A stretch of DNA of 64,000 bases from Achromobacter sp. AONIH1 (GTDB lineage: Bacteria; Pseudomonadota; Gammaproteobacteria; Burkholderiales; Burkholderiaceae_B). The stretch is from NCBI RefSeq assembly GCF_002902905.1, contig NZ_CP026124.1:1736001-1800000 (forward strand). The letters are read 5' to 3'. The position numbers and the translations under genes are program-made. Shown here piece after piece: positions 50,417 through 62,041 of this stretch (positions are counted from its first letter, which is position 1; each line of letters opens with the position of its first letter). A model generated the notes under the pieces. The model was not told the origin of the DNA. It searched no databases and was given only the letters and a program-made list of their open reading frames with translations.

Positions 50417-50435
50417 AGGTCCAAAATATGGACCT
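50417..50435. promoter_or_regulatory. IclR-type operator A (dctP side)
   Basis: AGGTCCAAAATATGGACCT has perfect 7-bp arms around 5 nt. It covers the probable -10 (reverse TATTTT, 50423-50428) of the leftward dctP promoter. It is one of four matching sites in the window. Confidence 0.75.
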
Positions 50436-50493: not shown

Positions 50494-50525
50494 GGGCGTG
50501 TGATGAAAAAGAAGTCAGTTAATAA

Positions 50526-50544
50526 TGGTCCACAAAATGGACCA
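50526..50544. promoter_or_regulatory. IclR-type operator B (iclR leader)
   Basis: TGGTCCACAAAATGGACCA has perfect 7-bp arms around 5 nt and lies about 33 nt after the iclR -10 box. A site here fits autoregulation. Confidence 0.75.
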
Positions 50545-50580
50545 AAAAATAATATCGAAGAACAAATCCACGGAGACGAT

Positions 50581-51408
50581 GTGGCGGAAGTGTCGACCCA
50601 GGTGGGCGGAGCGCAGGCCATCGCGCGCGCCATGCAGGTGCTGCGCGGCGTGTCGCGCGCCCGTGGCGACGGCGCCGGCTTGCTGGCCCTGACGCGCGAT
50701 ACCGGCCTGAGCAAGCCCACCGTGCATCGCATCCTGGCCGCGCTCGCCGCCGAAGGCATGGTCGAGCAGGAACCCGTCAGCCGGCGCTACTTCCTGGGAC
50801 CGGAATGCCATGTGCTGGGCAATGTCGCCAGCGAGCGTTTCGGCATCAACCGCCTGGCGGCGCCGGTGGTGGCGCGGCTGGCGCATGAATGCGGTGATTC
50901 CGCCTTCTTTTCCATCCGGCGCGACGTGTTCGCCGTCTGCGTGCTGCGCGAGGACGGCGACTATCCGCTCAAGACCCACGTGCTGCTGCCGGGCGACCGC
51001 CATCCGCTGGGCGTGGGCGCGGGCAGCCTGGCGATCCTGGCCGCGCTGCCGGACGACGAGGTCGACGCCTGCCTGCAGGCCAACGCGGCGCTGATCGCGC
51101 GGCGCTATCCGCACTATTCGGTGCCGCTGATCCGCGCGCTGGTCGACGAGTCTCGCGAACGCGGCTACTCGGTGAACCAGGGGCTGGTGGTGCCCGGCTC
51201 CTGGGGCCTCGGCGTGCCGCTGCGCGACGAGCAGGGGCAGGTGCTGGGCGCGCTCAGCATCGCCGCCGTGGAGTCGCGCATGGACGAGGAAAGACAGTTC
51301 CAGTTGGCCAAGCTGTTGTCGCGCGAGGCCCAACGCCTGCTGGCGCAGGCCAGTCCCGGGGGGAGGGAGGCGCGCGCGCGCCCGCCTGTCCCCAAGCCCA
51401 AGCCCTGA
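50581..51408 (+). CDS. IclR family transcriptional regulator
   Basis: 275 residues from the GTG at 50581 (GGAG 5 nt upstream). An ATG at 50503 would add 26 residues, but that stretch is AT-rich, low-complexity (Asn/Lys) and holds a perfect operator, so it is more likely leader. The N-terminal wHTH (AIARAMQVLRGVSRARG, LSKPTVHRILAALAAEGMVEQ) and effector domain (GDRHPLGVGAGSLAILAALP, RGYSVNQGLVVPGSWGLGVPL) are of family length. IclR proteins repress or activate catabolic and transport genes on binding a small acid. Targets are suggested by the four matching palindromes around dctP, itself, tauE and the carrier-protein operon. Confidence 0.94.
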   Translation: MAEVSTQVGGAQAIARAMQVLRGVSRARGDGAGLLALTRDTGLSKPTVHRILAALAAEGMVEQEPVSRRYFLGPECHVLGNVASERFGINRLAAPVVARLAHECGDSAFFSIRRDVFAVCVLREDGDYPLKTHVLLPGDRHPLGVGAGSLAILAALPDDEVDACLQANAALIARRYPHYSVPLIRALVDESRERGYSVNQGLVVPGSWGLGVPLRDEQGQVLGALSIAAVESRMDEERQFQLAKLLSREAQRLLAQASPGGREARARPPVPKPKP

Positions 51409-52625: not shown

Positions 52626-54259
52626 GCGGACCTGCTGCACATATGCCGGAAGGCGGCGTCGCGCCGGTATCGCGCCGGGTGATGAACCTGGCCCATTTCC
52701 TGGTGCAGGCGGCGCGCCGGCATCCTGAGCGGCACGCGCTGATCTGCGGCGAGGCGACGCTCAGCTGGCGCGAGCTGGATGGCCGCAGCGCGGCGCTGGC
52801 CCGGGCGTTGGCCGCCCATGGCGTGGGCAAGGGCGACCGCGTGCTGGTGCATTCGCGCAACAGCTTTGAATTCGTCGAAACGCTCTTCGCCACGCTGCGC
52901 CTGGGCGCCGTCTGGGTGCCGACGAACTTCCGCATCGCGCCGGACGAGGCGGCCTATCTGGCGCAGGCATCTGGCGCCAAGGTGTTCCTGTGCCAGGGCG
53001 ACTATGCCGACCACGCCGAGGCCGTGGCGCGGGCCATGCCGCAGCTGGCGCTGCTGGCAAGGCTCGGGCCGGAAGGCTTCGCCGCGCCCGAGGTCGCGGA
53101 CCTGATCGAGGCGCAGCGGGGCGCCGCGCCGGCCTGCGTCGATGTGGAGCATGACGATCCCTGCTGGTTCTTCTTCACGTCCGGCACCACCGGGCGGCCG
53201 AAAGCGGCGGTGCTGACGCATGGGCAGATGGCCTTCGTGATCACCAATCATCTGTGCGATCTCATGCCGGGCACGACCGAGCAGGACGTCAGCCTGGCCG
53301 TGGCGCCGCTGTCGCACGGCGCCGGCATCCATCTGCTGACCCAGGTGGCGCGCACCGCCTGCACCGTGCTGCCGGCGTCCACGCGCTTCGACGCCGAGGA
53401 GATCTGGCAGCTGGTGGAGCGCCATCGGGTGAGCAACATGTTCACCGTGCCCACCATCGTCAAGATGCTGGTCGAACATCCTGCCGTCGACGCCTGGGAT
53501 CACTCCAGCCTGCGCTACGTGATCTATGCCGGCGCGCCCATGTACCGCGAAGACCAGAAGCGCGCGCTGGAAAAGCTGGGGCCGGTGCTGGTGCAGTACT
53601 TCGGCCTGGGCGAGGTCACTGGCAACATCACCGTGCTGCCGCCGGCCCTGCATGAGGCGGCGGACGCGCCCGGCGCGCGCCTGGGCACTTGCGGCATCGA
53701 GCGCACCGGCATGCAGGTCAGCATCCAGGACGACAGCGGCCGGCAACTGGACCCCGGCCAGCCGGGCGAGATCTGCGTCTGCGGTCCGGCGGTGTTCGCG
53801 GGCTACTACGCCAATCCGCAGGCCAACGAAAAGGCCTTCCGTGACGGCTGGTTCCGCACCGGGGACCTGGGCTATATGGATGCGGAGGGCTTCGTCTATA
53901 TCACCGGCCGGCAATCCGATATGTACATCTCGGGCGGCTCGAACATCTATCCGCGCGAGGTCGAGGAAAAGGTGCTGACACACCCTGCCGTGGCTGAAAG
54001 CGCGGTGCTGGGCGTACCCGATCCGACCTGGGGCGAGGCCGGCGTCATGGTCTGCGTGTTGCGAGCTGGGCATGACCTGAGCGAGGACGAATTGCTGGCC
54101 TGGATGGCGCCGCGCATGGCGCGCTACAAGCTGCCGCGCCACATCTTCTTCTGGGACGAGTTGCCGCGCTCGGGCTACGGCAAGGTCACGAAGAAGCTGG
54201 TGCGCGATGCGCTGTACGAGCGCGGCTGCCTGGACCGCGCGCCGGAGCTGGCGCGCTGA
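52622..54259 (+). CDS. AMP-dependent acyl-CoA synthetase/ligase
   Basis: 545 residues of the ANL superfamily. The P-loop is FFTSGTTGRPKAA; YFGLGEVTG replaces the usual YGxTE but keeps the Glu. The hinge region GDLGYMDAEGFVYITGR is followed by the catalytic Lys in SGYGKVTKK. It activates a carboxylic acid as acyl-AMP and then acyl-CoA. With the TRAP importer, thiolase and SDR it suggests breakdown of an imported acid. Substrate not predictable. Confidence 0.93.
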   Translation: MSGPAAHMPEGGVAPVSRRVMNLAHFLVQAARRHPERHALICGEATLSWRELDGRSAALARALAAHGVGKGDRVLVHSRNSFEFVETLFATLRLGAVWVPTNFRIAPDEAAYLAQASGAKVFLCQGDYADHAEAVARAMPQLALLARLGPEGFAAPEVADLIEAQRGAAPACVDVEHDDPCWFFFTSGTTGRPKAAVLTHGQMAFVITNHLCDLMPGTTEQDVSLAVAPLSHGAGIHLLTQVARTACTVLPASTRFDAEEIWQLVERHRVSNMFTVPTIVKMLVEHPAVDAWDHSSLRYVIYAGAPMYREDQKRALEKLGPVLVQYFGLGEVTGNITVLPPALHEAADAPGARLGTCGIERTGMQVSIQDDSGRQLDPGQPGEICVCGPAVFAGYYANPQANEKAFRDGWFRTGDLGYMDAEGFVYITGRQSDMYISGGSNIYPREVEEKVLTHPAVAESAVLGVPDPTWGEAGVMVCVLRAGHDLSEDELLAWMAPRMARYKLPRHIFFWDELPRSGYGKVTKKLVRDALYERGCLDRAPELAR

Positions 54260-54323
54260 TGCGTGGAAATACAGACAAGGATGTACAGATAAAAAAAGCC
54301 CTAGCGGGCAAGGAGACGCAATC

Positions 54324-55088
54324 ATGGAGACGACGCAGGAGGCAGTGCTGGTAACAGGAGGGGCGTCGGGCATCGGCCTGGCGGTGGTTCGGGGGCTGCT
54401 GGATGCCGGACGCCGGGTGCTGGCGGCCGACCTTTCGCAGGAGCGGCTGGACGTCATGGGCGACATCGCGCCGCCCGAGAGGCTGGGGCGCGTGCGCCTG
54501 GATGTGTCGGACGAAGCGCAGGTCGTGGATGCGCTGGCGCGGCAGGAGAGCGCTTTCGGGCCGATAGGCGGGCTGGTCAACAGCGCCGGCATCGGCCAGG
54601 ACCTGCCGTTCCTGGACACCGAAACCGCGGCGCTGCGCCGCATGCTGGAGGTGAACCTGGTGGGGTCCTTCGTCGTGGCGCGCGAGGTCGCGCGCCGCAT
54701 GCGCAAGCGCGGACATGGCTCCATCGTCAACATCACCTCGGTGTCGGGCATACGCGGCAATGCCGGACGCGCGGCCTACGGCGCGTCCAAGGGCGGGGTG
54801 GTGACGCTGACGCGCGTGATGGCGGTCGAACTGGCTGAATACGGCATTCGCGTCAACGCGGTTGCGCCGGGGCCGATCGAAACGCCGCTGGTGGGGCAGA
54901 TGCATACCGAGCAGGCGCGCGCCGCCTGGCGCCGGGTGGTGCCGCAGCATCGCTATGCCGCGCCCGAAGAGCTGAATGGGACTATCGGCTGGTTGCTCGA
55001 CGAGTCCAAATCCAGCTATGTTACCGGGCAGGTCATCTGCGTGGACGGCGGCTTCACCGCGGCCGGCATGTTGCCCGCCATGCACTGA
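54324..55088 (+). CDS. Short-chain dehydrogenase/reductase
   Basis: 254 residues from ATG 54324, after AAGGAG. The NAD(P) motif TGGASGIG is at residues 11-18. The catalytic Ser region is NITSVSG and the YxxxK is Y152/K156 (YGASK). The C-terminal GQVICVDGGF is typical. The acidic residue at the end of beta 2 (AADLSQ) favours NAD. It probably oxidises a hydroxyacyl intermediate between the ligase and thiolase steps. Confidence 0.93.
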   Translation: METTQEAVLVTGGASGIGLAVVRGLLDAGRRVLAADLSQERLDVMGDIAPPERLGRVRLDVSDEAQVVDALARQESAFGPIGGLVNSAGIGQDLPFLDTETAALRRMLEVNLVGSFVVAREVARRMRKRGHGSIVNITSVSGIRGNAGRAAYGASKGGVVTLTRVMAVELAEYGIRVNAVAPGPIETPLVGQMHTEQARAAWRRVVPQHRYAAPEELNGTIGWLLDESKSSYVTGQVICVDGGFTAAGMLPAMH

Positions 55089-55143
55089 GTTTGTCATTGC
55101 CCAGGTTTCATTCATTGCGCCACAAGCGCACGGAGACCAGACC

Positions 55144-55725
55144 ATGCGATACACCACCGTGGATCGTTCGTTGCGGGGAGTACAAGCGCCGCCCCGTCCC
55201 AGAACGCTGATACACCCGGGCGCCTTCAACCCGGTCCGCATACACAGCCGCTGCGCCGGACATGGCCGCCACGTGCGGCTGCTGCTCAGGCCGGGGGCTT
55301 CCCTGTTCGACGCCATGGTCGACACGCTGGCCGGGGCCGGCATCGCCAATGCGTCCATGACCATCCTGGGCGGGGGCTTCCGTCACCTGGACTACTGCAC
55401 CGCGCCGCCCGATCCGCAGCACCGGATGGTGGTGGCCTATACAGCGCCCATCTCGGCCGGCGCCGCCTATCTTATTTTCGGCAACGCCACGCTGGGCAAG
55501 ACCGATGCGGGCGCGCCGCTGGTGCATTGCCACGCGGCATTCTGCGACGAGACGGGCGCGCCGCTGGGCGGACACATCGTGCCCCAGACCACCATCGTCG
55601 GCGAACGGCCGGTGCCGGTGCTGGTGACGTCACTGGAAGGCTTTGAGCTGCGTGCCACCTATGACGCCGAAACCAATCTGCGGCTATTGCAGCCCCAAGG
55701 GACGGGTGACCATGGACATGCCTGA
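55144..55725 (+). CDS. PPC/DUF296 domain protein 1
   Basis: 193 residues from ATG 55144; the frame extends further upstream to 54976 through the SDR gene, which is not coding. The PPC-type fold is indicated by RLLLRPGASLFDAMVDTLAGAGIANASMTILGG and the LVHCHAAFCDETG / GGHIV residues that often hold metal or ligand. The family is small and trimeric, related to plant AT-hook proteins, with unknown bacterial role. A second family member overlaps its end by 14 nt. Confidence 0.82.
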   Translation: MRYTTVDRSLRGVQAPPRPRTLIHPGAFNPVRIHSRCAGHGRHVRLLLRPGASLFDAMVDTLAGAGIANASMTILGGGFRHLDYCTAPPDPQHRMVVAYTAPISAGAAYLIFGNATLGKTDAGAPLVHCHAAFCDETGAPLGGHIVPQTTIVGERPVPVLVTSLEGFELRATYDAETNLRLLQPQGTGDHGHA

Positions 55726-56113
55726 TGTCGAAAGCGGCAGCATGGGCCGCGTGGCCTACGCCCGCATCGGACCCAACGAAGACCTGGTGCAGGGCGTGGA
55801 AAAGCTCTGCCTGGCCGAGGGCTTTCGCAATGCCTTCGTGCGCGGCGCGCTGGGCAGCCTGGTGGATGCCTGCCTGTACACCCGCGATGGCGGATACCGC
55901 CATGTGTCCGGGCCGGCGGTCGAGATCGTCAGTCTCGCCGGCGAGGTGCGGGCGCAGCCGGACGGCTCGCTGACGGCGTCGCTGTCGGGCGTGGTCGCCG
56001 ATCCGCAGGGGCAGGTGCACGGCGGACCGTTCGTGCCGGGCGCCAATCCCATCTGCATGACCTTCGAGGTCACGCTCGAGGAATGGCTGCCGGCAGAGGA
56101 TGCGGCGGCCTAG
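55712..56113 (+). CDS. PPC/DUF296 domain protein 2
   Basis: 133 residues from ATG 55712. It is a compact PPC/DUF296 protein (VAYARIGPNEDLVQGVEKLCLAEG, AFVRGALGSLVDACL, GGPFVPGANPICMTFEVTLEEW). It overlaps the previous family member by 14 nt in a different frame. The tandem pair could form mixed trimers. It overlaps the convergent tauE stop region by 4 nt. Confidence 0.82.
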   Translation: MDMPDVESGSMGRVAYARIGPNEDLVQGVEKLCLAEGFRNAFVRGALGSLVDACLYTRDGGYRHVSGPAVEIVSLAGEVRAQPDGSLTASLSGVVADPQGQVHGGPFVPGANPICMTFEVTLEEWLPAEDAAA

Positions 56114-56874
56114 AACCAGTAACGCGCCGCGTAGATGATCGTCATCGCGGCGCCCGTCACGATGACGAACAGGCGCACGGCCTGGGCGGGGAGCACGCGG
56201 ATCAGGTAGCCGCCCAGGTATCCGCCCAGCAACGCGCCCGCCAGCATGCAGAGGGTGGCGGGCCAGTGGACCGATCCCTGCGCGATGAAGATGACGATGG
56301 CCGCCGCGGTGACGAAGGTGGCCAGCAGGTTCTTCAGCGACTTGATGGCGCGCAGGTTGCCGGGGTCGGTGATTGATATCACCGCGGTCAGGATGACGCC
56401 GAGCCCGGCGCCGAAGAAACCTCCATACACCGATGCCAGCGCGATCGGCACGACGCCGCGCGCGGCGCGGTCCTGCGCCTGCGCGCCGCGCCGGCACGCG
56501 CTCCAGGCTTGTACTTGTGGCGCAAAGGCGAACAGCAGCGTGGCGAAGGCAATGAGCGCCGGCACCGGCAGGATGAAATAGGCCGGCGGGATCGCCAGCA
56601 GGACGAAGGCGCCCAGCGCGCCGCCCGCCGTCGTCGCCACGGCCAGCAGCCAGAAGCGGCGATCGGGCGCGGGCAGGTTTTCGCGGTCGGCCAGCGCGGC
56701 CAGGATATGGCCCGGCGATATCGCCACCGCGCTGGAGGCGTTGGCGATGACGGGCGGCAGTCCGGCCGCGACCATGGCGGGGAAGGTGATGAGCGTCGCG
56801 CCGCCCGCCAGCGCGTTGATGGCCCCGCCCAGTACGCCCGCGCCCGCCAGCAGCGCCGCCATGCTCCAGTCCAT
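56110..56874 (-). CDS. TauE/SafE family permease
   Basis: 254 residues from ATG 56874, chosen because AGGAGG stands 5 nt upstream; an upstream ATG at 56895 lacks this. About eight hydrophobic segments carry the two family repeats (GGAINALAGGATLITFPAMVAAGLPP and VYGGFFGAGLGVILTAVISIT). TauE/SafE proteins move sulfite, sulfonates or organic acids, often outward. A reverse-strand promoter (TTCACA, 17 nt, TTACAT; 56907-56935) has operator C over its -10. It is divergent from the carrier-protein operon and may export its product. Confidence 0.9.
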   Translation of the reverse strand: MDWSMAALLAGAGVLGGAINALAGGATLITFPAMVAAGLPPVIANASSAVAISPGHILAALADRENLPAPDRRFWLLAVATTAGGALGAFVLLAIPPAYFILPVPALIAFATLLFAFAPQVQAWSACRRGAQAQDRAARGVVPIALASVYGGFFGAGLGVILTAVISITDPGNLRAIKSLKNLLATFVTAAAIVIFIAQGSVHWPATLCMLAGALLGGYLGGYLIRVLPAQAVRLFVIVTGAAMTIIYAARYWF

Positions 56875-56900
56875 GCGTGCCTCCTGTTCAAACAACGTAT

Positions 56901-56919
56901 TGGTCCATGTAATGGACTT
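56901..56919. promoter_or_regulatory. IclR-type operator C (tauE side)
   Basis: TGGTCCATGTAATGGACTT keeps the TGGTCCA arm and 5-nt spacing; the right arm differs at two of seven bases. It covers the -10 of the leftward tauE promoter, exactly as operator A does for dctP. Confidence 0.65.
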
Positions 56920-56943
56920 AAATATGTCATGTGAAATTTATTA

Positions 56944-56971
56944 TTGCCTATTATCTGCGAGGGTATAGAAT
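56944..56971 (+). promoter_or_regulatory. Candidate promoter of the carrier-protein operon
   Basis: TTGCCT (56944-56949), a 16-nt spacer and TAGAAT (56966-56971), the same layout as the iclR promoter. The 5' leader to the methyltransferase ATG would be about 230 nt. Confidence 0.5.
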
Positions 56972-56995
56972 GCAATCAAACAAAATATAAATTAA

Positions 56996-57014
56996 TGGTC
57001 CATCAAATGGACCT
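56996..57014. promoter_or_regulatory. IclR-type operator D (operon leader)
   Basis: TGGTCCATCAAATGGACCT has near-perfect arms (outermost pair mismatched) and lies 25 nt after the -10 box, mirroring operator B. Confidence 0.75.
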
Positions 57015-57208
57015 AAATAAAGAGACTCCGGCGACGCCTTTTAGTCGCCACCGCTGTGTCGCTGTCACTCCCGGGACGGCGTTCGCGGCCCAATCTCTAT
57101 CCGGCCTTCCGCGTTCGCGTCCTGATCACTGGCGCGCGGCTCGTACCCGAGCTGCCGCGTATTCATCCGCATGGCCTTACCGGCCGCCGTTGAATCAGGA
57201 GGGAATCG

Positions 57209-58198
57209 ATGGATGTGAGTTTCATGGCGTTTTCCCGTTTGGCGTTCGGGCATTGGGAAGGACAGCCGCTCTATGCGCTGGCCGACCTGGGTATTCCGCA
57301 GCGCCTGGCCCAGCCGCGCAGCTGCGCCGATCTGGCCGCCGAGCTGGGATGCCCCGCCGAGGCCTTGGAGCGCTTGCTGGATTGCGCGGTGGCGCAGAAG
57401 CTGCTGGTTTGCGAGGCCGGCCGCTACGGCAACAGTGAACTGAGCGCGCGCTTCCTGACCGAGGACAGTCCCGAGTCGCTGCTCAGCTGGATCCGCATCA
57501 TGGACCGCTGGAAGCGGCCCTGGGCACAGCTGGCCGAGGCGGTGCGGCAGGGAGCGGCGGTCGACAATCAGGCCAAGTGGCTGGGCGAGGATCCGCAGTT
57601 CATGCGCGACTTCATCCTGGGCATGCACCAATTCGCCGCGCGTTCCGGACCGCAATTCGCCGAGGCGCTGAAGGACCTGCCCGTGCGCCGGCTGATCGAC
57701 GTGGGCGGCGGCGCGGGCACCTACTCGATCGCGCTGTGCGCCGCGCGTCCCGAGGCGCGGGCGGAGATCCTGGACCTGGCGCCGGTGGTGGACATCACGC
57801 GCGAGACAGCGCGCGCCGCCGGCCTGGCCGAGCGCGTCACGGCGCGGGTGGCCGACTACCGCCACGACGAGTTCGGCGCGGATGCCGACGCGCTGCTGTT
57901 CTCCAACGTGCTGCACCAGGAAAGCGCCGAGGTCTGCCGCTCGATGCTGGCGCGCGCGCTGCGGGCGCTGCGCGCCGGCGGCACGTTGCTGGTACAGGGC
58001 TACTTCCTGTCGGAAGACCGGCGCGCGCCGCAGTTCACCACCCTGCACAACCTGTCGGCGCTGGCGCTGTGGGACGGCGGACGTAGCTGGACCGTGGGTG
58101 ACATGCAGGCGCTGATCGCCGCGGCCGGCTTCGAGCGGCAGACCGTGCTGCGGCAGGAGAGCAGCGGCTTCTGCCTGCTGTCGGCCGCGAAGCTGTGA
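57209..58198 (+). CDS. SAM-dependent methyltransferase (O-methyltransferase family 2-like)
   Basis: 329 residues with AGGAGGG 5 nt before the ATG. The N-terminal winged-helix dimerisation domain (about 1-100, YALADLGIPQRLAQPRSCADLAAELGC) precedes a Rossmann SAM domain with motif I LIDVGGGAGTYSIAL at about residues 162-176. The His of LFSNVLHQE (H236) is at the place of the catalytic base in plant-type and antibiotic O-methyltransferases. It is the first gene of the carrier-protein operon. The substrate may be a carrier-bound or free hydroxyl/oxime group. Confidence 0.92.
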   Translation: MDVSFMAFSRLAFGHWEGQPLYALADLGIPQRLAQPRSCADLAAELGCPAEALERLLDCAVAQKLLVCEAGRYGNSELSARFLTEDSPESLLSWIRIMDRWKRPWAQLAEAVRQGAAVDNQAKWLGEDPQFMRDFILGMHQFAARSGPQFAEALKDLPVRRLIDVGGGAGTYSIALCAARPEARAEILDLAPVVDITRETARAAGLAERVTARVADYRHDEFGADADALLFSNVLHQESAEVCRSMLARALRALRAGGTLLVQGYFLSEDRRAPQFTTLHNLSALALWDGGRSWTVGDMQALIAAAGFERQTVLRQESSGFCLLSAAKL

Positions 58199-58230
58199 CG
58201 CCGTTCCCATCCCCCAATCACGGAGCCAAC

Positions 58231-58479
58231 ATGTCCACGTTGACGCTGAACAATACCGAGTCCGAAGTGATCGCCTGGCTGAAGGAGAACCGCAATGCGA
58301 CCGTCGAGGGCATCAAGGAAAAGAACCTGATCGAGGAACGCATTCTGGACAGCATGCAGTTCCTGGATTTCATCATGTTCCTGGGCGAACTGACCGGGCG
58401 CGACGTGTCTGGCGCGATCACCGTGGACGACCTGAAGACGGTGGACGCGATCGTGCGCTTCGTCCACGCGCAGAGCTAG
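58231..58479 (+). CDS. Acyl carrier protein
   Basis: 82 residues with GGAG 5 nt before ATG 58231. The four-helix carrier fold is indicated by SEVIAWLKENRN, the phosphopantetheine Ser S41 in ILDSMQFLDFIMFLGEL and a last helix TVDAIVRFVHAQS. The DSM motif in place of DSL is common in stand-alone aminoacyl carrier proteins. It is the likely scaffold for the aaRS-like ligase, with the PPTase at the operon end installing its cofactor. Confidence 0.93.
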   Translation: MSTLTLNNTESEVIAWLKENRNATVEGIKEKNLIEERILDSMQFLDFIMFLGELTGRDVSGAITVDDLKTVDAIVRFVHAQS

Positions 58480-58495
58480 CCGGGAGCGTCATGCC

Positions 58496-59389
58496 ATGGA
58501 TATCGACTACGCCAGAATCGGCCGCCTCATGACGCTGTCCAAGGGGCGCACGCACGACCCCTACGAGCGTTTCACCTGGCCCGAGCGCATTCCAGAGGAC
58601 CAGCCCTGGTGCAGCGAGGATCTGCTGACCACCTACGGCACGCCCTACCAGGACCAGCTGGACCCCGGCCAACGGGTGCGCCTGAGCAAATGGGAGGCGG
58701 TCAATTTCTTCAGCCTCAACGTGCACGGCATCAAGGGCGTGCTGGGCTTCGTCAGCCGTTGCATCTACGAGCCGCGCTATGCCGACGTGTCCGAGTACCT
58801 GCACGTCTTCATGGGCGAAGAGAACTTCCACATGTGGTACTTCGCCAAGGCCTGCCTGGACTACGCGGGCAAGATCTATCCGGCGATCCAGCTGCAAGGA
58901 CCGGAGCAGACGGACAGCCCCGAGCTGGAGGACCTGTACATGTTCGCCAGCACGCTGATCTTCGAGGAGTTCGTCGACTACTACAACCATAAGGTCGGCA
59001 CTACCGAAGGCATCACCGACATCCTCAAGCAGGTCAACTACGAGCACCACGTCGACGAATCGCGGCACGTCTCGTTCGGCCGCGAGATGGTCCCCAGGCT
59101 GTACCGGCTGGCGCTGGAACGCAGCGCCGACCCTGAAGCCACGCGCGCCGACGTAGACCGCATGGTGACCAGCATGTTCCGCTATTTCATCAGCCTGATG
59201 TACAAGCCGGCCGTGTATGACGATGCGGATGTTCACGGACCGCTGGGCTTTCGCAATGGTCACGCGATGCGCAACGCGCTGCGCGCGCATCCGGCCCGCA
59301 AGGCCGTGCATGAGCAATGGTTCAAGCGCAGCGCGGCCTTTTTCAGCAAACAGGGCCTGGTCGCCGGCCTGGACCTGGCCGCGCTGTAG
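58496..59389 (+). CDS. AurF-like diiron oxygenase
   Basis: 297 residues. The ferritin-like four-helix metal ligand pattern is E67 (KWEAVNFF), E109/H112 (EENFH), E157 (FEEFVDYY), H184/E188/H191 (HHVDESRH). Spacings from E109 to H112 (3), E157 to H184 (27) and then +4 and +3 match those I recall for the AurF N-oxygenase ligands (E136-H139, E196-H223-E227-H230). AurF/CmlI enzymes oxidise amines to hydroxylamine, nitroso or nitro groups, others hydroxylate C-H. The neighbouring carrier protein suggests an aminoacyl-S-carrier substrate. Family membership is firm; the reaction is inference. Confidence 0.88.
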   Translation: MDIDYARIGRLMTLSKGRTHDPYERFTWPERIPEDQPWCSEDLLTTYGTPYQDQLDPGQRVRLSKWEAVNFFSLNVHGIKGVLGFVSRCIYEPRYADVSEYLHVFMGEENFHMWYFAKACLDYAGKIYPAIQLQGPEQTDSPELEDLYMFASTLIFEEFVDYYNHKVGTTEGITDILKQVNYEHHVDESRHVSFGREMVPRLYRLALERSADPEATRADVDRMVTSMFRYFISLMYKPAVYDDADVHGPLGFRNGHAMRNALRAHPARKAVHEQWFKRSAAFFSKQGLVAGLDLAAL

Positions 59390-59400
59390 GAGGACCCGCC

Positions 59401-60357
59401 ATGGCAAGCGTCCTGAGCGGACCGGCGGTCCAAGCCCTGTTCGGCGCTCGCCTGCCCGTGCTGCAGGCGGGTATGGGCGGCGTGGCGCAACCGGAACTGG
59501 CTGCGGCGGTCTGCGAGGCCGGCGGTTTCGGCATGATCGGCCTGTACCGGCACGAAGAAGGCGAGATCTGCGAGTTGCTTGCGCGGACCGCCGCGCTCAC
59601 GCCGGCGCGTTTCGGCGTGAACTTCGTGCCATTCGTGCTGGACGCCGAGCAACTGCTCGGTCGCCTGGCCTGCCTGGCCGACCGGCCGGAACGTCCGGTG
59701 GTGACTTTCTTCGGTCTGCCGCAGGCGCGCGTGCTGCGCAGCCTGCCCGCCGGCATGGACTATGGCGCGCAGGTCGGCTCGCGGGAGGATCTGGACGCCG
59801 CGTTCGACGCGGGACTGCGTTTCGGCGTGCTGCAGACCGTCGAGGCGGGTGGCCACCATCTGGGCGCGCTGACGCGCGCGCGGGCGCTGGATCAGGCGGA
59901 CCAGCTGCTGGCTGGCGGCCGGATGGTGTTCCTGAGCGGCGGCATCAGCAATGCCGCCGAGCTTCGGCTGGCGCTGGACGCCGGCTATGCCGGCGCCCTG
60001 TGCGGCACCGTGTTCGCCGCCACCGAGGAATCGGCGGCGCACGCGCGCTACAAGCAGGCGATCGTCGACGCCCGGCCGGACGACACCGTGGTCACCGACC
60101 GCTTCAGCATCGGCTGGCACACGCACCGCCACCGGGTCATCCGCAACCGCAGCTGTGACGGCGACCTGTCGGCCGGCGTCATTGGATTTGCCCACTATTT
60201 CGGAAAACGCTACCCCATCCTGCGCTACAGCGTTGCTGTGCCCACTGCCCAGACCGAGGGGCAGATCGAGGACATGGCGTTGTATTGCGGGACGTCCTGC
60301 AAGGACACGCATGCCGTCCGCACCGTGAGGCAGGTGCTGGCGGACCTGACGTCCTGA
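59401..60357 (+). CDS. Nitronate monooxygenase-like FMN protein
   Basis: 318 residues of the NMO/2-nitropropane dioxygenase family. The N-terminal PVLQAGMGGVAQPELAAAVCEAGGFGMIG and the flavin/active-site block QTVEAGGHHLG with the catalytic His are clear, as is FLSGGISNAAELRLALDAGYAGALCGTVFAATEES in the C-terminal half of the TIM barrel. It could oxidise a nitronate formed by the diiron enzyme, or protect the cell from it. The same family also includes enoyl reductases (FabK) that act on carrier-bound acyl groups, so a carrier reductase role remains possible. It is 11 nt after the diiron gene. Confidence 0.88.
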   Translation: MASVLSGPAVQALFGARLPVLQAGMGGVAQPELAAAVCEAGGFGMIGLYRHEEGEICELLARTAALTPARFGVNFVPFVLDAEQLLGRLACLADRPERPVVTFFGLPQARVLRSLPAGMDYGAQVGSREDLDAAFDAGLRFGVLQTVEAGGHHLGALTRARALDQADQLLAGGRMVFLSGGISNAAELRLALDAGYAGALCGTVFAATEESAAHARYKQAIVDARPDDTVVTDRFSIGWHTHRHRVIRNRSCDGDLSAGVIGFAHYFGKRYPILRYSVAVPTAQTEGQIEDMALYCGTSCKDTHAVRTVRQVLADLTS

Positions 60358-60384
60358 GCGCATCCACCCGAAGGAGATTGCATC

Positions 60385-61170
60385 GTGATTATCGAGAAGC
60401 AGTGGCACCAGGTGAAGAACGTCCTGCAGGCCAAGCTGGACAGCACATTCTCGGTCGCGCCGGACGCGACCACCGAATTCGACAGCCTGCTGGCCTTGGA
60501 CGAGATCAACGCGCTCGGCTATGTGCGCAATTTCCCGCACCTGACCTGCGTCATGTGTTCGATCGAGCAAGGCGAGCTGCTGGGCTTCGCGCGCGGCCAG
60601 CGCAAGCTCGAACCCGACTTCAAGCAGTTGAATGCGGATGTGGCCCTGTTGCCCGCGACCTGCTACAAGATCTACCTGGGCCTGAAGGGCCAGCAGCTGG
60701 ATGGCGCGCGGGTGGAGTCCTGCATCGCGCGCTGCTTCCGCCATGAAGACAAGGCGCTGGACAGCTACCGCGCCTTCAACTTCACCATGAAGGAATACGT
60801 GTACCTGGGCACCGCCGAGGGCGCGCAGGCGCATCTGGAGGCCGGCTACGACCGTGTGTTCTCTTTGTTCGCGCAGCTGGGCATCCGCGCCGATTGCGAA
60901 GAAGCCAACGATCCCTTCTTCGATTCCGGCAGCCCGGTGGCCCGGCTGTCGGCCTTGACGCCCACCAAGCGCGAGCTGGTGTTCGACGGACATGCCGTGT
61001 CTTCGCTGAACTATCACCGCAACTATTTCGGCGAGAAGTTCGAGATCCGCCTGAACGGCGAATTCGCGCATACGAGCTGCGTGGCCTTCGGGCTGGAGCG
61101 CTGGATCTCCATGCTGAAGGACCATTTCGGCGACGCCCGCCGCGCGCTGGCCGCGTTGGAACAGGCCTAG
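60385..61170 (+). CDS. Amino acid:[carrier protein] ligase-like truncated class II aaRS
   Basis: 261 residues with a GTG start and AAGGAG 8 nt upstream. It is a lone class II synthetase catalytic domain related to archaeal-type SerRS but without a tRNA-binding arm. Motif 2 is CFRHE (117-121) and motif 3 is GLERW (236-240). C93, E137 and C232 sit where this family has its three zinc ligands (Cys-Glu-Cys). Characterised homologues activate Gly or Ala and load it on a small carrier protein rather than tRNA. The carrier gene is three genes upstream in the same operon. Amino acid choice is not readable here. Confidence 0.88.
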   Translation: MIIEKQWHQVKNVLQAKLDSTFSVAPDATTEFDSLLALDEINALGYVRNFPHLTCVMCSIEQGELLGFARGQRKLEPDFKQLNADVALLPATCYKIYLGLKGQQLDGARVESCIARCFRHEDKALDSYRAFNFTMKEYVYLGTAEGAQAHLEAGYDRVFSLFAQLGIRADCEEANDPFFDSGSPVARLSALTPTKRELVFDGHAVSSLNYHRNYFGEKFEIRLNGEFAHTSCVAFGLERWISMLKDHFGDARRALAALEQA

Positions 61171-61179
61171 GGGCGGGCC

Positions 61180-61551
61180 ATGGCGCAGGCGCAGACTCTG
61201 TTTCGCTCGGGGCAGCAGTTCGAGAAGACCTGGGAGGTGGACGCCGCCGCCCTGTCCTTGAACTACGGCGGTGACATGGACGTGCTGGCCACGCCGGTCA
61301 TCGTCTATTGGATCGAGTCCTATGCCACCGAGTGCATACGCCGGGCGGGCGACGGCAGTTGCCGTTCGGTCGGCCAGGCCGTGAGCGTCAAGCATGTCGC
61401 GCCCGCGTATCCGGGCAGCGCGGTGCGGCTGACGCTCACGGTGCAGGCCATGTTCGGCAACGCGCTGCGCTTCGATGCCCGCGCGGTGGCGGCGCGGGAC
61501 GGCAGCCTGATCGCCACCGGCACCCATGACCGCACCCTCATCGGGACTTGA
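61180..61551 (+). CDS. FlK-like hotdog thioesterase
   Basis: 123 residues. The fold and motif order match FlK-type (fluoroacetyl-CoA) thioesterases. T38 (LATP), E46 (YWIESYA) and H72 (SVKHVAPAYPGS) have the same spacings (8 and 26) as the FlK catalytic Thr42/Glu50/His76. Such enzymes hydrolyse small activated acyl thioesters. It may release the finished acid from the carrier or clear toxic acyl-CoA. It overlaps the PPTase gene by 26 nt. Confidence 0.87.
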   Translation: MAQAQTLFRSGQQFEKTWEVDAAALSLNYGGDMDVLATPVIVYWIESYATECIRRAGDGSCRSVGQAVSVKHVAPAYPGSAVRLTLTVQAMFGNALRFDARAVAARDGSLIATGTHDRTLIGT

Positions 61552-62041
61552 TCTCACAGTGGTGCTCGGCGCCAGGCCGGCGCAGGCGCCGGCCCGCACA
61601 CGCCTGGGCAAGCCCTATCTGCCCGGCACGGCCGGGTTCGGCCTGAGCGACAGCGGCGGCGTGCAGGCCGCGCTATACGCCAACCGCAAGTACGTGGGCA
61701 TCGATATCGAACGGCTCGACCGGCCGGATCTGGCGGCGCGGCGGCACCGGCTGGGCGCCTGGGTGGCGCGGCGCGACCATGTGCCGGTGGAGTTCCTGGC
61801 GGGCTGGGTCGCGCGCGAGGCCTGCGCCAAGTGCGTGGGGCTGGGCTTGCTGCATGCTCTGCCGCGCATGGCGATCGCCTGGACGCGGCAGGTCGCCGAA
61901 GGGGGCGGGGCCGTGGACATCGGGCTGGACTTCGCCGGCCGGGGCTTCGTGGCGCGCTGCGCCCGGCTGGATGGCCTGATGCTGGGGCTGTGCTATCGCG
62001 AGGACTACGGTCCGCCGAGAATCGTGCTGCTGCGCGGATAG
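61526..62041 (+). CDS. 4'-phosphopantetheinyl transferase
   Basis: 171 residues, short for the Sfp type but with both motifs: VGIDIERL (D60, E62) for magnesium and GWVAREACAK (W94, E98, K102), the WxxxExxxK signature. It converts apo-carrier to holo-carrier by transferring phosphopantetheine from CoA. Being the last gene of the operon, it most likely serves the ACP encoded at 58231-58479. The start lies within the thioesterase gene, so translation is coupled. Confidence 0.9.
   Translation: MTAPSSGLDLTVVLGARPAQAPARTRLGKPYLPGTAGFGLSDSGGVQAALYANRKYVGIDIERLDRPDLAARRHRLGAWVARRDHVPVEFLAGWVAREACAKCVGLGLLHALPRMAIAWTRQVAEGGGAVDIGLDFAGRGFVARCARLDGLMLGLCYREDYGPPRIVLLRG

Follow-up and report, generated by a model that had tools for sequence, protein, structure and literature searches.

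An eight-gene accessory unit in Achromobacter sp. AONIH1 that may run a nitronate pathway on a dedicated carrier protein

A stretch of 64,000 nucleotides from the 6.65-Mb genome of Achromobacter sp. AONIH1 (contig NZ_CP026124.1; the whole stretch is hereafter the window) contains a functional unit of eight genes, in which seven genes for a small carrier protein and the enzymes that appear to serve it lie beside a divergent gene for a predicted TauE/SafE-family exporter (TauE; Table 1). The unit is read here as an accessory pathway that makes and processes a nitronate on the carrier protein, a reading to which we give about an even chance of being right as a whole; its substrates, reactions, order of steps, exported species and regulator are what gene families and neighbourhoods suggest. 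The 4'-phosphopantetheinyl transferase (PPTase) would first convert the acyl/aminoacyl carrier protein (ACP) to its holo form, after which a ligase resembling class II aminoacyl-tRNA synthetases (aaRS) would adenylate a small amino acid, probably glycine, and load it onto the ACP. An AurF-like diiron enzyme would then oxidise the amine to the nitro or aci-nitro (nitronate) level, and a flavoprotein of the nitronate monooxygenase (NMO) family would act on the carrier-bound nitronate, most likely by oxidative denitrification to nitrite and glyoxylyl-ACP. An O-methyltransferase (MT2) would tailor a product of this NMO branch, an FlK-like thioesterase would release a small acid, and TauE would export the released anion (or nitrite); control would probably lie with an IclR-family regulator that binds paired palindromes. 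A thioesterase of the FlK type suits a small acyl thioester that carries an acidifying, electron-withdrawing alpha substituent.

The seven plus-strand open reading frames (ORFs) between positions 57209 and 62041 had been proposed as a pathway in an initial annotation. They are real and intact, with no internal stops, and the ratio of nonsynonymous to synonymous substitution rates (dN/dS) between the window and four other species is 0.08-0.26 for all eight genes of the unit (0.24-0.26 for the PPTase gene), which indicates purifying selection. A 783-aa antisense ORF (59260-61611) was rejected as a gene because the opposite strand holds conserved genes with conserved residues. The extent of seven genes, on the other hand, was too small, and TauE belongs to the unit as well. 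Among 43 Achromobacter genomes, the AurF gene occurs at high identity in five, and a TauE orthologue (E cutoff 1e-40; 91% identity outside its own genome) is found in these five genomes and is missing from the remaining 38. Furthermore, the block conserved among related species runs from about 56112 to 61961-62034 and has sharp ends. Outside the genus, TauE adjoins the homologous operon of Variovorax (L039), upstream and in the same direction, and on an Agrobacterium vitis plasmid (L118), in a locus that is without the methyltransferase, it is co-directional and follows the PPTase gene. The SDR and PCC-domain genes upstream (54207-56113) were considered as further members and excluded because the PCC flank also occurs in genomes without the AurF gene and because the shared block begins at the end of this flank. 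The block is continuous with the PCC-domain genes in L038 and L191, and in G476, G478 and G488 the PCC flank lies approx. 26-39 kb from TauE on one contig. The downstream chemotaxis gene was uninformative as a flank marker, as all 43 genomes match it through paralogues. AMP-binding, fatty-acid-desaturase and MFS genes come after the operon in Variovorax (L039, 11600-16472), where the pathway may be longer.

The thiotemplate logic that the initial annotation saw in these genes, with loading, carrier, PPTase, diiron oxidation, flavin step, methylation and release but without a nonribosomal peptide synthetase (NRPS) or polyketide synthase (PKS), is backed by the enzyme families (Table 1) and by conserved residues. 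The latter were counted across the cassette copies, the window's own included; residue numbers of the ACP and NMO homologue depend on the query, which began one codon early for the ACP and one codon late for the NMO homologue. No NRPS gene was found among the ORFs of the block 56110-62041, and neither a PKS nor an aminotransferase gene was found within it. Of nine Glu/His positions checked in the AurF-like protein, eight (E67, E108, E109, H112, E157, H184, E188 and H191) are conserved in 100 of 100 copies and the ninth, E158, in 89; those among them that bind iron are presumably the same as in AurF. A structure model of this protein (mean pLDDT 91.0) has CmlI and AurF as its best matches in the PDB, whereas a sequence search of the PDB at E 0.001 returned no match for the AurF-like protein, for its alignment or for the FlK-like protein. 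The phosphopantetheine serine of the DSM/DSL motif is present in all 88 ACPs. In the ligase, C93, R119 and E137 are found in 94 of 94 copies and C232 and R239 in 93 (one gap); C93, E137 and C232 align with residues of the ligase Bll0957 that we take to be its zinc site, and R119 and R239 presumably correspond to the class II arginines. The His of the GGH motif of the flavoprotein (H151) is invariant in 46 copies. In MT2, H236, which aligns with the VLH histidine of hydroxyindole O-methyltransferase and is presumably catalytic as in other O-methyltransferases, occurs in 13 of 13 copies, and T38, E46 and H72 of the thioesterase, presumably the Thr/Glu/His triad of FlK, occur in seven of seven.

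The wider family was surveyed in 100 loci, several of which come from one genome or from near-identical species. They comprise the window, the best 80 of 244 relatives from an AurF-anchored scan of genome contigs, three loci from an order-level search (28 genomes with any match, of which 25 weak ones were left out), five from plasmids (out of 11 plasmid records) and 11 from a further search and a genus search, in which strong matches of types already in hand and weak matches (E approx. 1e-15 to 1e-18 and above) were omitted. Neighbours were sought within 7 kb of the AurF homologue with profiles made from the same loci, at thresholds of >40 bits in general, 25 for the ACP and FlK, 200 for the LCM-family methyltransferase (PF04072; LCM) and 300 for MT2; dereplication at 90% AurF identity gave 60 groups. 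The AurF and ligase genes stand together in 93 of the 100 loci, always on the same strand, and a recognised ACP is present in 90. The ligase is missing from L034, a short contig that carries a PKS, and from L042, L117 and L176-L179. The loader appears to be exchangeable because an AMP-binding family takes the place of the ligase in the latter six (recognised by Pfam in L042, L117 and L176, with the gene family of L176 recurring in L177-L179). Likewise, the release step may be performed by different enzymes in different loci, since an alpha/beta hydrolase profile is found near AurF in 28 of the 46 NMO loci and in none of the seven with an FlK-like gene.

The survey also revealed an either/or pattern in the enzyme that accompanies the AurF homologue. 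The partner is an NMO homologue in 46 loci, an LCM methyltransferase in 32, neither in 22 and both in none; after dereplication, the corresponding numbers are 22, 22, 16 and zero (n = 60), one near-identical AurF group with a mixture of LCM and neither being scored as LCM. For this mutual exclusion, the Fisher p is 1.6e-6 (uncorrected for kinship). On the best AurF tree, made with a quick method and containing several long branches, at least four changes between NMO and LCM are needed, and at least three changes per label versus the rest when only well-supported branches are considered; the proteobacterial AurF group that includes the window has five LCM loci, four NMO loci and one with neither. 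Such repeated switching is expected if the product of the diiron enzyme is one intermediate whose next steps are exchangeable. According to the available parts of PMC9967187 and PMC12154687, glycine-derived nitronates have two fates, O-methylation or denitrification, and the pattern would fit this published fork if LCM represents the O-methylating arm and NMO the denitrifying arm. The window operon is on the NMO arm: it has the NMO-family gene, lacks an LCM methyltransferase and carries MT2, a methyltransferase of another family. MT2 itself scores above 300 bits in 11 of the 46 NMO loci and in none of the 32 LCM loci or the 22 with neither (dereplicated, 7/22, 0/22 and 0/16; p 4e-4, uncorrected for kinship). 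Because strong MT2 matches occur only in NMO loci, this enzyme probably acts after the flavoprotein step, or depends on it, rather than acting on the nitronate itself.

Several points weigh against a denitrifying pathway of this kind. Neither branch enzyme lies within 7 kb in 22 of the 100 loci, at least one of them (L111) on a contig as short as 3640 bases. The role proposed for LCM as the O-methylating arm is our own assignment. The MT2 profile also has weak matches (43-57 bits) in LCM and other loci, and those inspected are a different type of methyltransferase. After denitrification, moreover, an obvious acceptor for the O-methyltransferase would be lacking. The reaction of the flavoprotein cannot be read from its sequence because the FabK and NMO profiles score nearly alike. 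The ligase, which scores 121.8 bits against the amino acid--[ACP] ligase equivalog NF005479 (cutoff 357), is a relative rather than a member of that equivalog, and because it falls below this NCBIfam cutoff its amino acid may differ from that of Bll0957. Finally, Variovorax L039 and A. vitis L118 lack the palindromes described below, save for one site with four mismatches in each.

One alternative is a reductive branch: a FabK-like flavoprotein would reduce the nitronate on its carrier, giving an aldoxime from which the methyltransferase would form an O-methyl oxime, and the thioesterase would free methoxyiminoacetate. The scores of 80.0 bits (NMO) and 75.7 bits (FabK) are about equal, FabK enzymes use ACP-bound substrates, and such a branch would explain why MT2 occurs only beside the flavoprotein (11/46 vs. 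0/54); in the available part of PMC9967187, enteromycin-class aldoximes (akazaoxime and althiomycin) are ascribed to a diiron oxygenase. However, the alternative fate described in the accessible parts of the published work is denitrification, 35 of the 46 NMO loci have no MT2 nearby, and the flavoprotein stays far below the FabK equivalog cutoff, so that this branch is considered unlikely. It is rather improbable, too, that the amino acid is not glycine, or that the diiron enzyme halts at the N-hydroxy or nitroso stage, to give a hydroxylamine- or diazeniumdiolate-type metabolite functionally similar to the ham/pvf signals. Diiron N-oxygenases that yield nitroso, nitro, nitronate or azoxy products are known (PMC12154687, available part), valdiazen, a signal of Burkholderia cenocepacia, represents the same chemistry (PMC11659414 and PMC5878181, available parts), and the ligase scores under its equivalog cutoff; nonetheless, the either/or pattern fits a nitronate best, and NRPS and aminotransferase genes are absent from the block 56110-62041. 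That MT2 acts on the nitronate itself, giving an O-methyl nitronate, with the flavoprotein merely clearing unmethylated nitronate, is quite unlikely, for although nitronate O-methylation is a known alternative fate (PMC9967187 and PMC12154687, as far as available) and MT2 retains the O-methyltransferase His, a substitute for LCM would be expected in cassettes without NMO as well, and there MT2 exceeds 300 bits in 0 of 54.

N-oxygenation of a carrier-bound amino acid, as suggested in the initial annotation, stands as the best reading and has published precedent. The products named there were an oxime or a nitro compound. The family pattern fits a nitronate better than an oxime; aldoximes have also been ascribed to related diiron enzymes (PMC9967187, available part).

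As for control, an operator-like palindrome, TGGTCCAT-N3-ATGGACC, occurs as a pair between the TauE and methyltransferase genes, with promoter-like sites on both strands between the two copies. All five Achromobacter sequences compared, that of the window among them, have the pair, which shows 0-3 mismatches per site and a spacing of 93-106 bp. Just one further close pair was found in the window; its members lie 109 bp apart in the DctP/IclR intergenic region, and 20 triplet shuffles of the window produced no palindrome pair. This flank exists in 14 genomes of the genus. In each of the seven examined, three of which are without the AurF gene (L203, L205 and L211), the DctP/IclR pair is present next to the IclR gene, with a spacing of 109 bp in six and 119 bp in one. 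Its second member overlaps the called start of the IclR gene, the true start of which may lie further downstream. A third pair in the same genome (four and two mismatches) precedes a PhyH-methyltransferase-aminotransferases-arginase-MFS cluster. The PhyH gene occurs in one other of the 43 genomes (G494), which has the whole cluster and a pair there as well; approx. 3 kb separate it from the point where the IclR operon ends. A scan of the whole genome at up to two mismatches gave 28 matches (both palindrome strands counted) compared with 18 for a reversed control, so lone weak sites mean little and the paired arrangement is the signal. Because the palindrome pair of the cassette promoter recurs at the IclR gene, shared control of the cassette and the IclR locus is suggested; the IclR protein would bind the palindromes and probably controls the unit. 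In a broader picture, which is speculative and rather improbable in its entirety, the unit would make a small C2 acid, N-oxidised or O-methylated, without any NRPS, and TauE would export this acid to serve as a diffusible signal or antimetabolite. The unit would form part of a palindrome-pair regulon whose IclR regulator would also govern a TRAP importer together with a thiolase/CoA-ligase operon and, in certain species, a second accessory biosynthetic cluster, the one with PhyH, aminotransferases and arginase.

Table 1. Features of the eight-gene unit, its candidate regulator and the palindrome pairs (window coordinates unless a locus is named).
Feature	Position	Strand	Profile and score
TauE/SafE-family exporter (predicted), divergent	56110..56895	-	PF01925, 119.4 bits
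SAM-dependent O-methyltransferase, dimerisation and Methyltransf_2 domains (MT2)	57209..58198	+	
Acyl/aminoacyl carrier protein (ACP), 82 aa	58231..58479	+	
AurF-like ferritin-like diiron N-oxygenase	58496..59389	+	PF11583, 86.3 bits (above gathering cutoff of 29.6)
NMO/FabK superfamily flavoprotein	59401..60357	+	PF03060, 80.0 bits (above gathering cutoff of 28); FabK model TIGR03151, 75.7 bits (far below its cutoff)
Class II aaRS-like amino acid:[carrier protein] ligase, 261 aa, GTG start	60385..61170	+	
FlK-like hotdog thioesterase	61180..61551	+	PF22636, 69.1 bits (above gathering cutoff of 27)
PPTase, 26 bp overlap with thioesterase gene	61526..62041	+	PF01648, 23.4 bits (slightly under cutoff)
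IclR-family regulator, candidate for cassette control	50500..51408	+	PF01614, 56.0 bits; PF09339, 45.0 bits
Cassette pair, first palindrome	56901..56918		
Cassette pair, second palindrome, 95 bp after the first	56996..57013		
DctP/IclR pair, first palindrome	50417..50435		
DctP/IclR pair, second palindrome	50526..50544		
Further palindrome pair, locus L201	8156-8257		
Further palindrome pair, locus L210	7095-7191		
Further palindrome pair, locus L211	4067-4204		

Other members of the family show a variety of companions. The source genome itself has a second AurF-ACP-ligase cassette (L032, 7839-13234; G000:C1 about 4426839-4432234; 36% and 32% identical), accompanied by genes for an enoyl-CoA hydratase, an alpha/beta hydrolase, an EamA transporter and a methyltransferase, with a divergent LysR gene adjoining. 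On a Tistrella plasmid (L115, 8765-18070), AurF, ACP, ligase, NMO and methyltransferase genes are followed on the opposite strand by aldo/keto reductase, SDR and TRAP-transporter genes, the last of which recall the TRAP locus near the window cassette. Two Micromonospora loci (L173 and L174) combine AurF, ligase, NMO and ACP genes with a stand-alone condensation-domain gene, a pair of ABC-transporter genes and two methyltransferases from the same family as the window enzyme. A 325-aa protein without a Pfam or NCBIfam match is encoded in 26 of the 46 NMO loci (L044-L064 and similar Streptomyces/Micromonospora loci), and a profile of a PigE-like aminotransferase fusion has matches, weak ones included, in 19 of the 46. 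Two consecutive ligase genes stand beside one AurF gene in Nonomuraea soli (L090, 9079-10700).

The initial annotation knew of no described pathway with this set of genes. This can hold only for the exact set, which looks new within the open-access literature searched in being free of NRPS and PKS and in having an FlK-like thioesterase, its own PPTase, TauE and an NMO-linked MT2. It does not hold for the class of chemistry, for which the available parts of the literature on glycine-derived nitronates provide a precedent; the unit is a stand-alone relative of known chemistry. Its gene content suggests a compact, self-contained form of carrier-bound nitronate chemistry outside NRPS/PKS lines: 6 kb hold the loader, the carrier, its activator, the oxidase and the branch enzyme as well as release and export, and this compactness should make the unit easy to rebuild in vitro. 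Moreover, with the NMO/LCM pattern a published bifurcation becomes a rule, open to testing, by which products could be predicted from neighbouring genes, and the association of MT2 with the NMO branch suggests a fate beyond those described in the accessible literature.

Among known systems, the pvf, mgo and ham diazeniumdiolate systems have an NRPS in the cluster, whereas the window block is without one. Related cassettes reportedly denitrify the nitronate, as the abstract of He and Ryan (2021, Nat. Chem., 10.1038/s41557-021-00656-8) is said to state. The nitronate cassettes of these authors, likened here by description, have a carrier-bound amino acid and a diiron oxygenase followed by a methyltransferase or by denitrification, which the either/or pattern of the family would fit; the hallmarks of this type in the window operon are the dedicated ACP, the amino-acid loader (by homology only) and the AurF-type diiron oxygenase. 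The same study is cited for nitronate formation by a diiron enzyme in the available part of PMC12154687. Bll0957-type amino acid:[carrier protein] ligases (Mocibob et al. 2010; PMC2922099, available part) are alike in their class II aaRS-like core and in the small ACP gene adjoining. They differ from the window ligase in length (346 aa for the PDB chain of Bll0957 vs. 261 aa), in that the window ligase reaches about one third of the equivalog cutoff and in the N-oxygenation context of the window. Class I aaRS-like systems (same source) were set aside as relatives, as were the chalkophomycin-type N-hydroxypyrrole and the lipothrenin hydroxamate (PMC11177257 and PMC10616846, available parts), for their different loaders and enzymes, and cyanobacterial CylC clusters with an NMO also exist (PMC8406957, available part). 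The arylamine N-oxygenases AurF and CmlI are 14-16% identical to the window protein in structural alignment; unlike theirs, its substrate is probably carrier-bound and aliphatic. FlK, the fluoroacetyl-CoA thioesterase, shares PF22636 and the Thr/Glu/His set with the window thioesterase, which, unlike FlK, probably acts on a nitro-, glyoxylyl- or methoxy-type acyl-ACP. In the enteromycin class, as described in the available part of PMC9967187, carrier-bound glycine meets a diiron oxygenase and a nitronate O-methyltransferase. There, glycine is held on an NRPS A-PCP and then extended, whereas the window operon has an aaRS-like ligase and no NRPS or PKS, and, unlike in the enteromycin-class cluster, an FlK-like thioesterase, a PPTase, a Methyltransf_2 enzyme and TauE travel with the window cassette.

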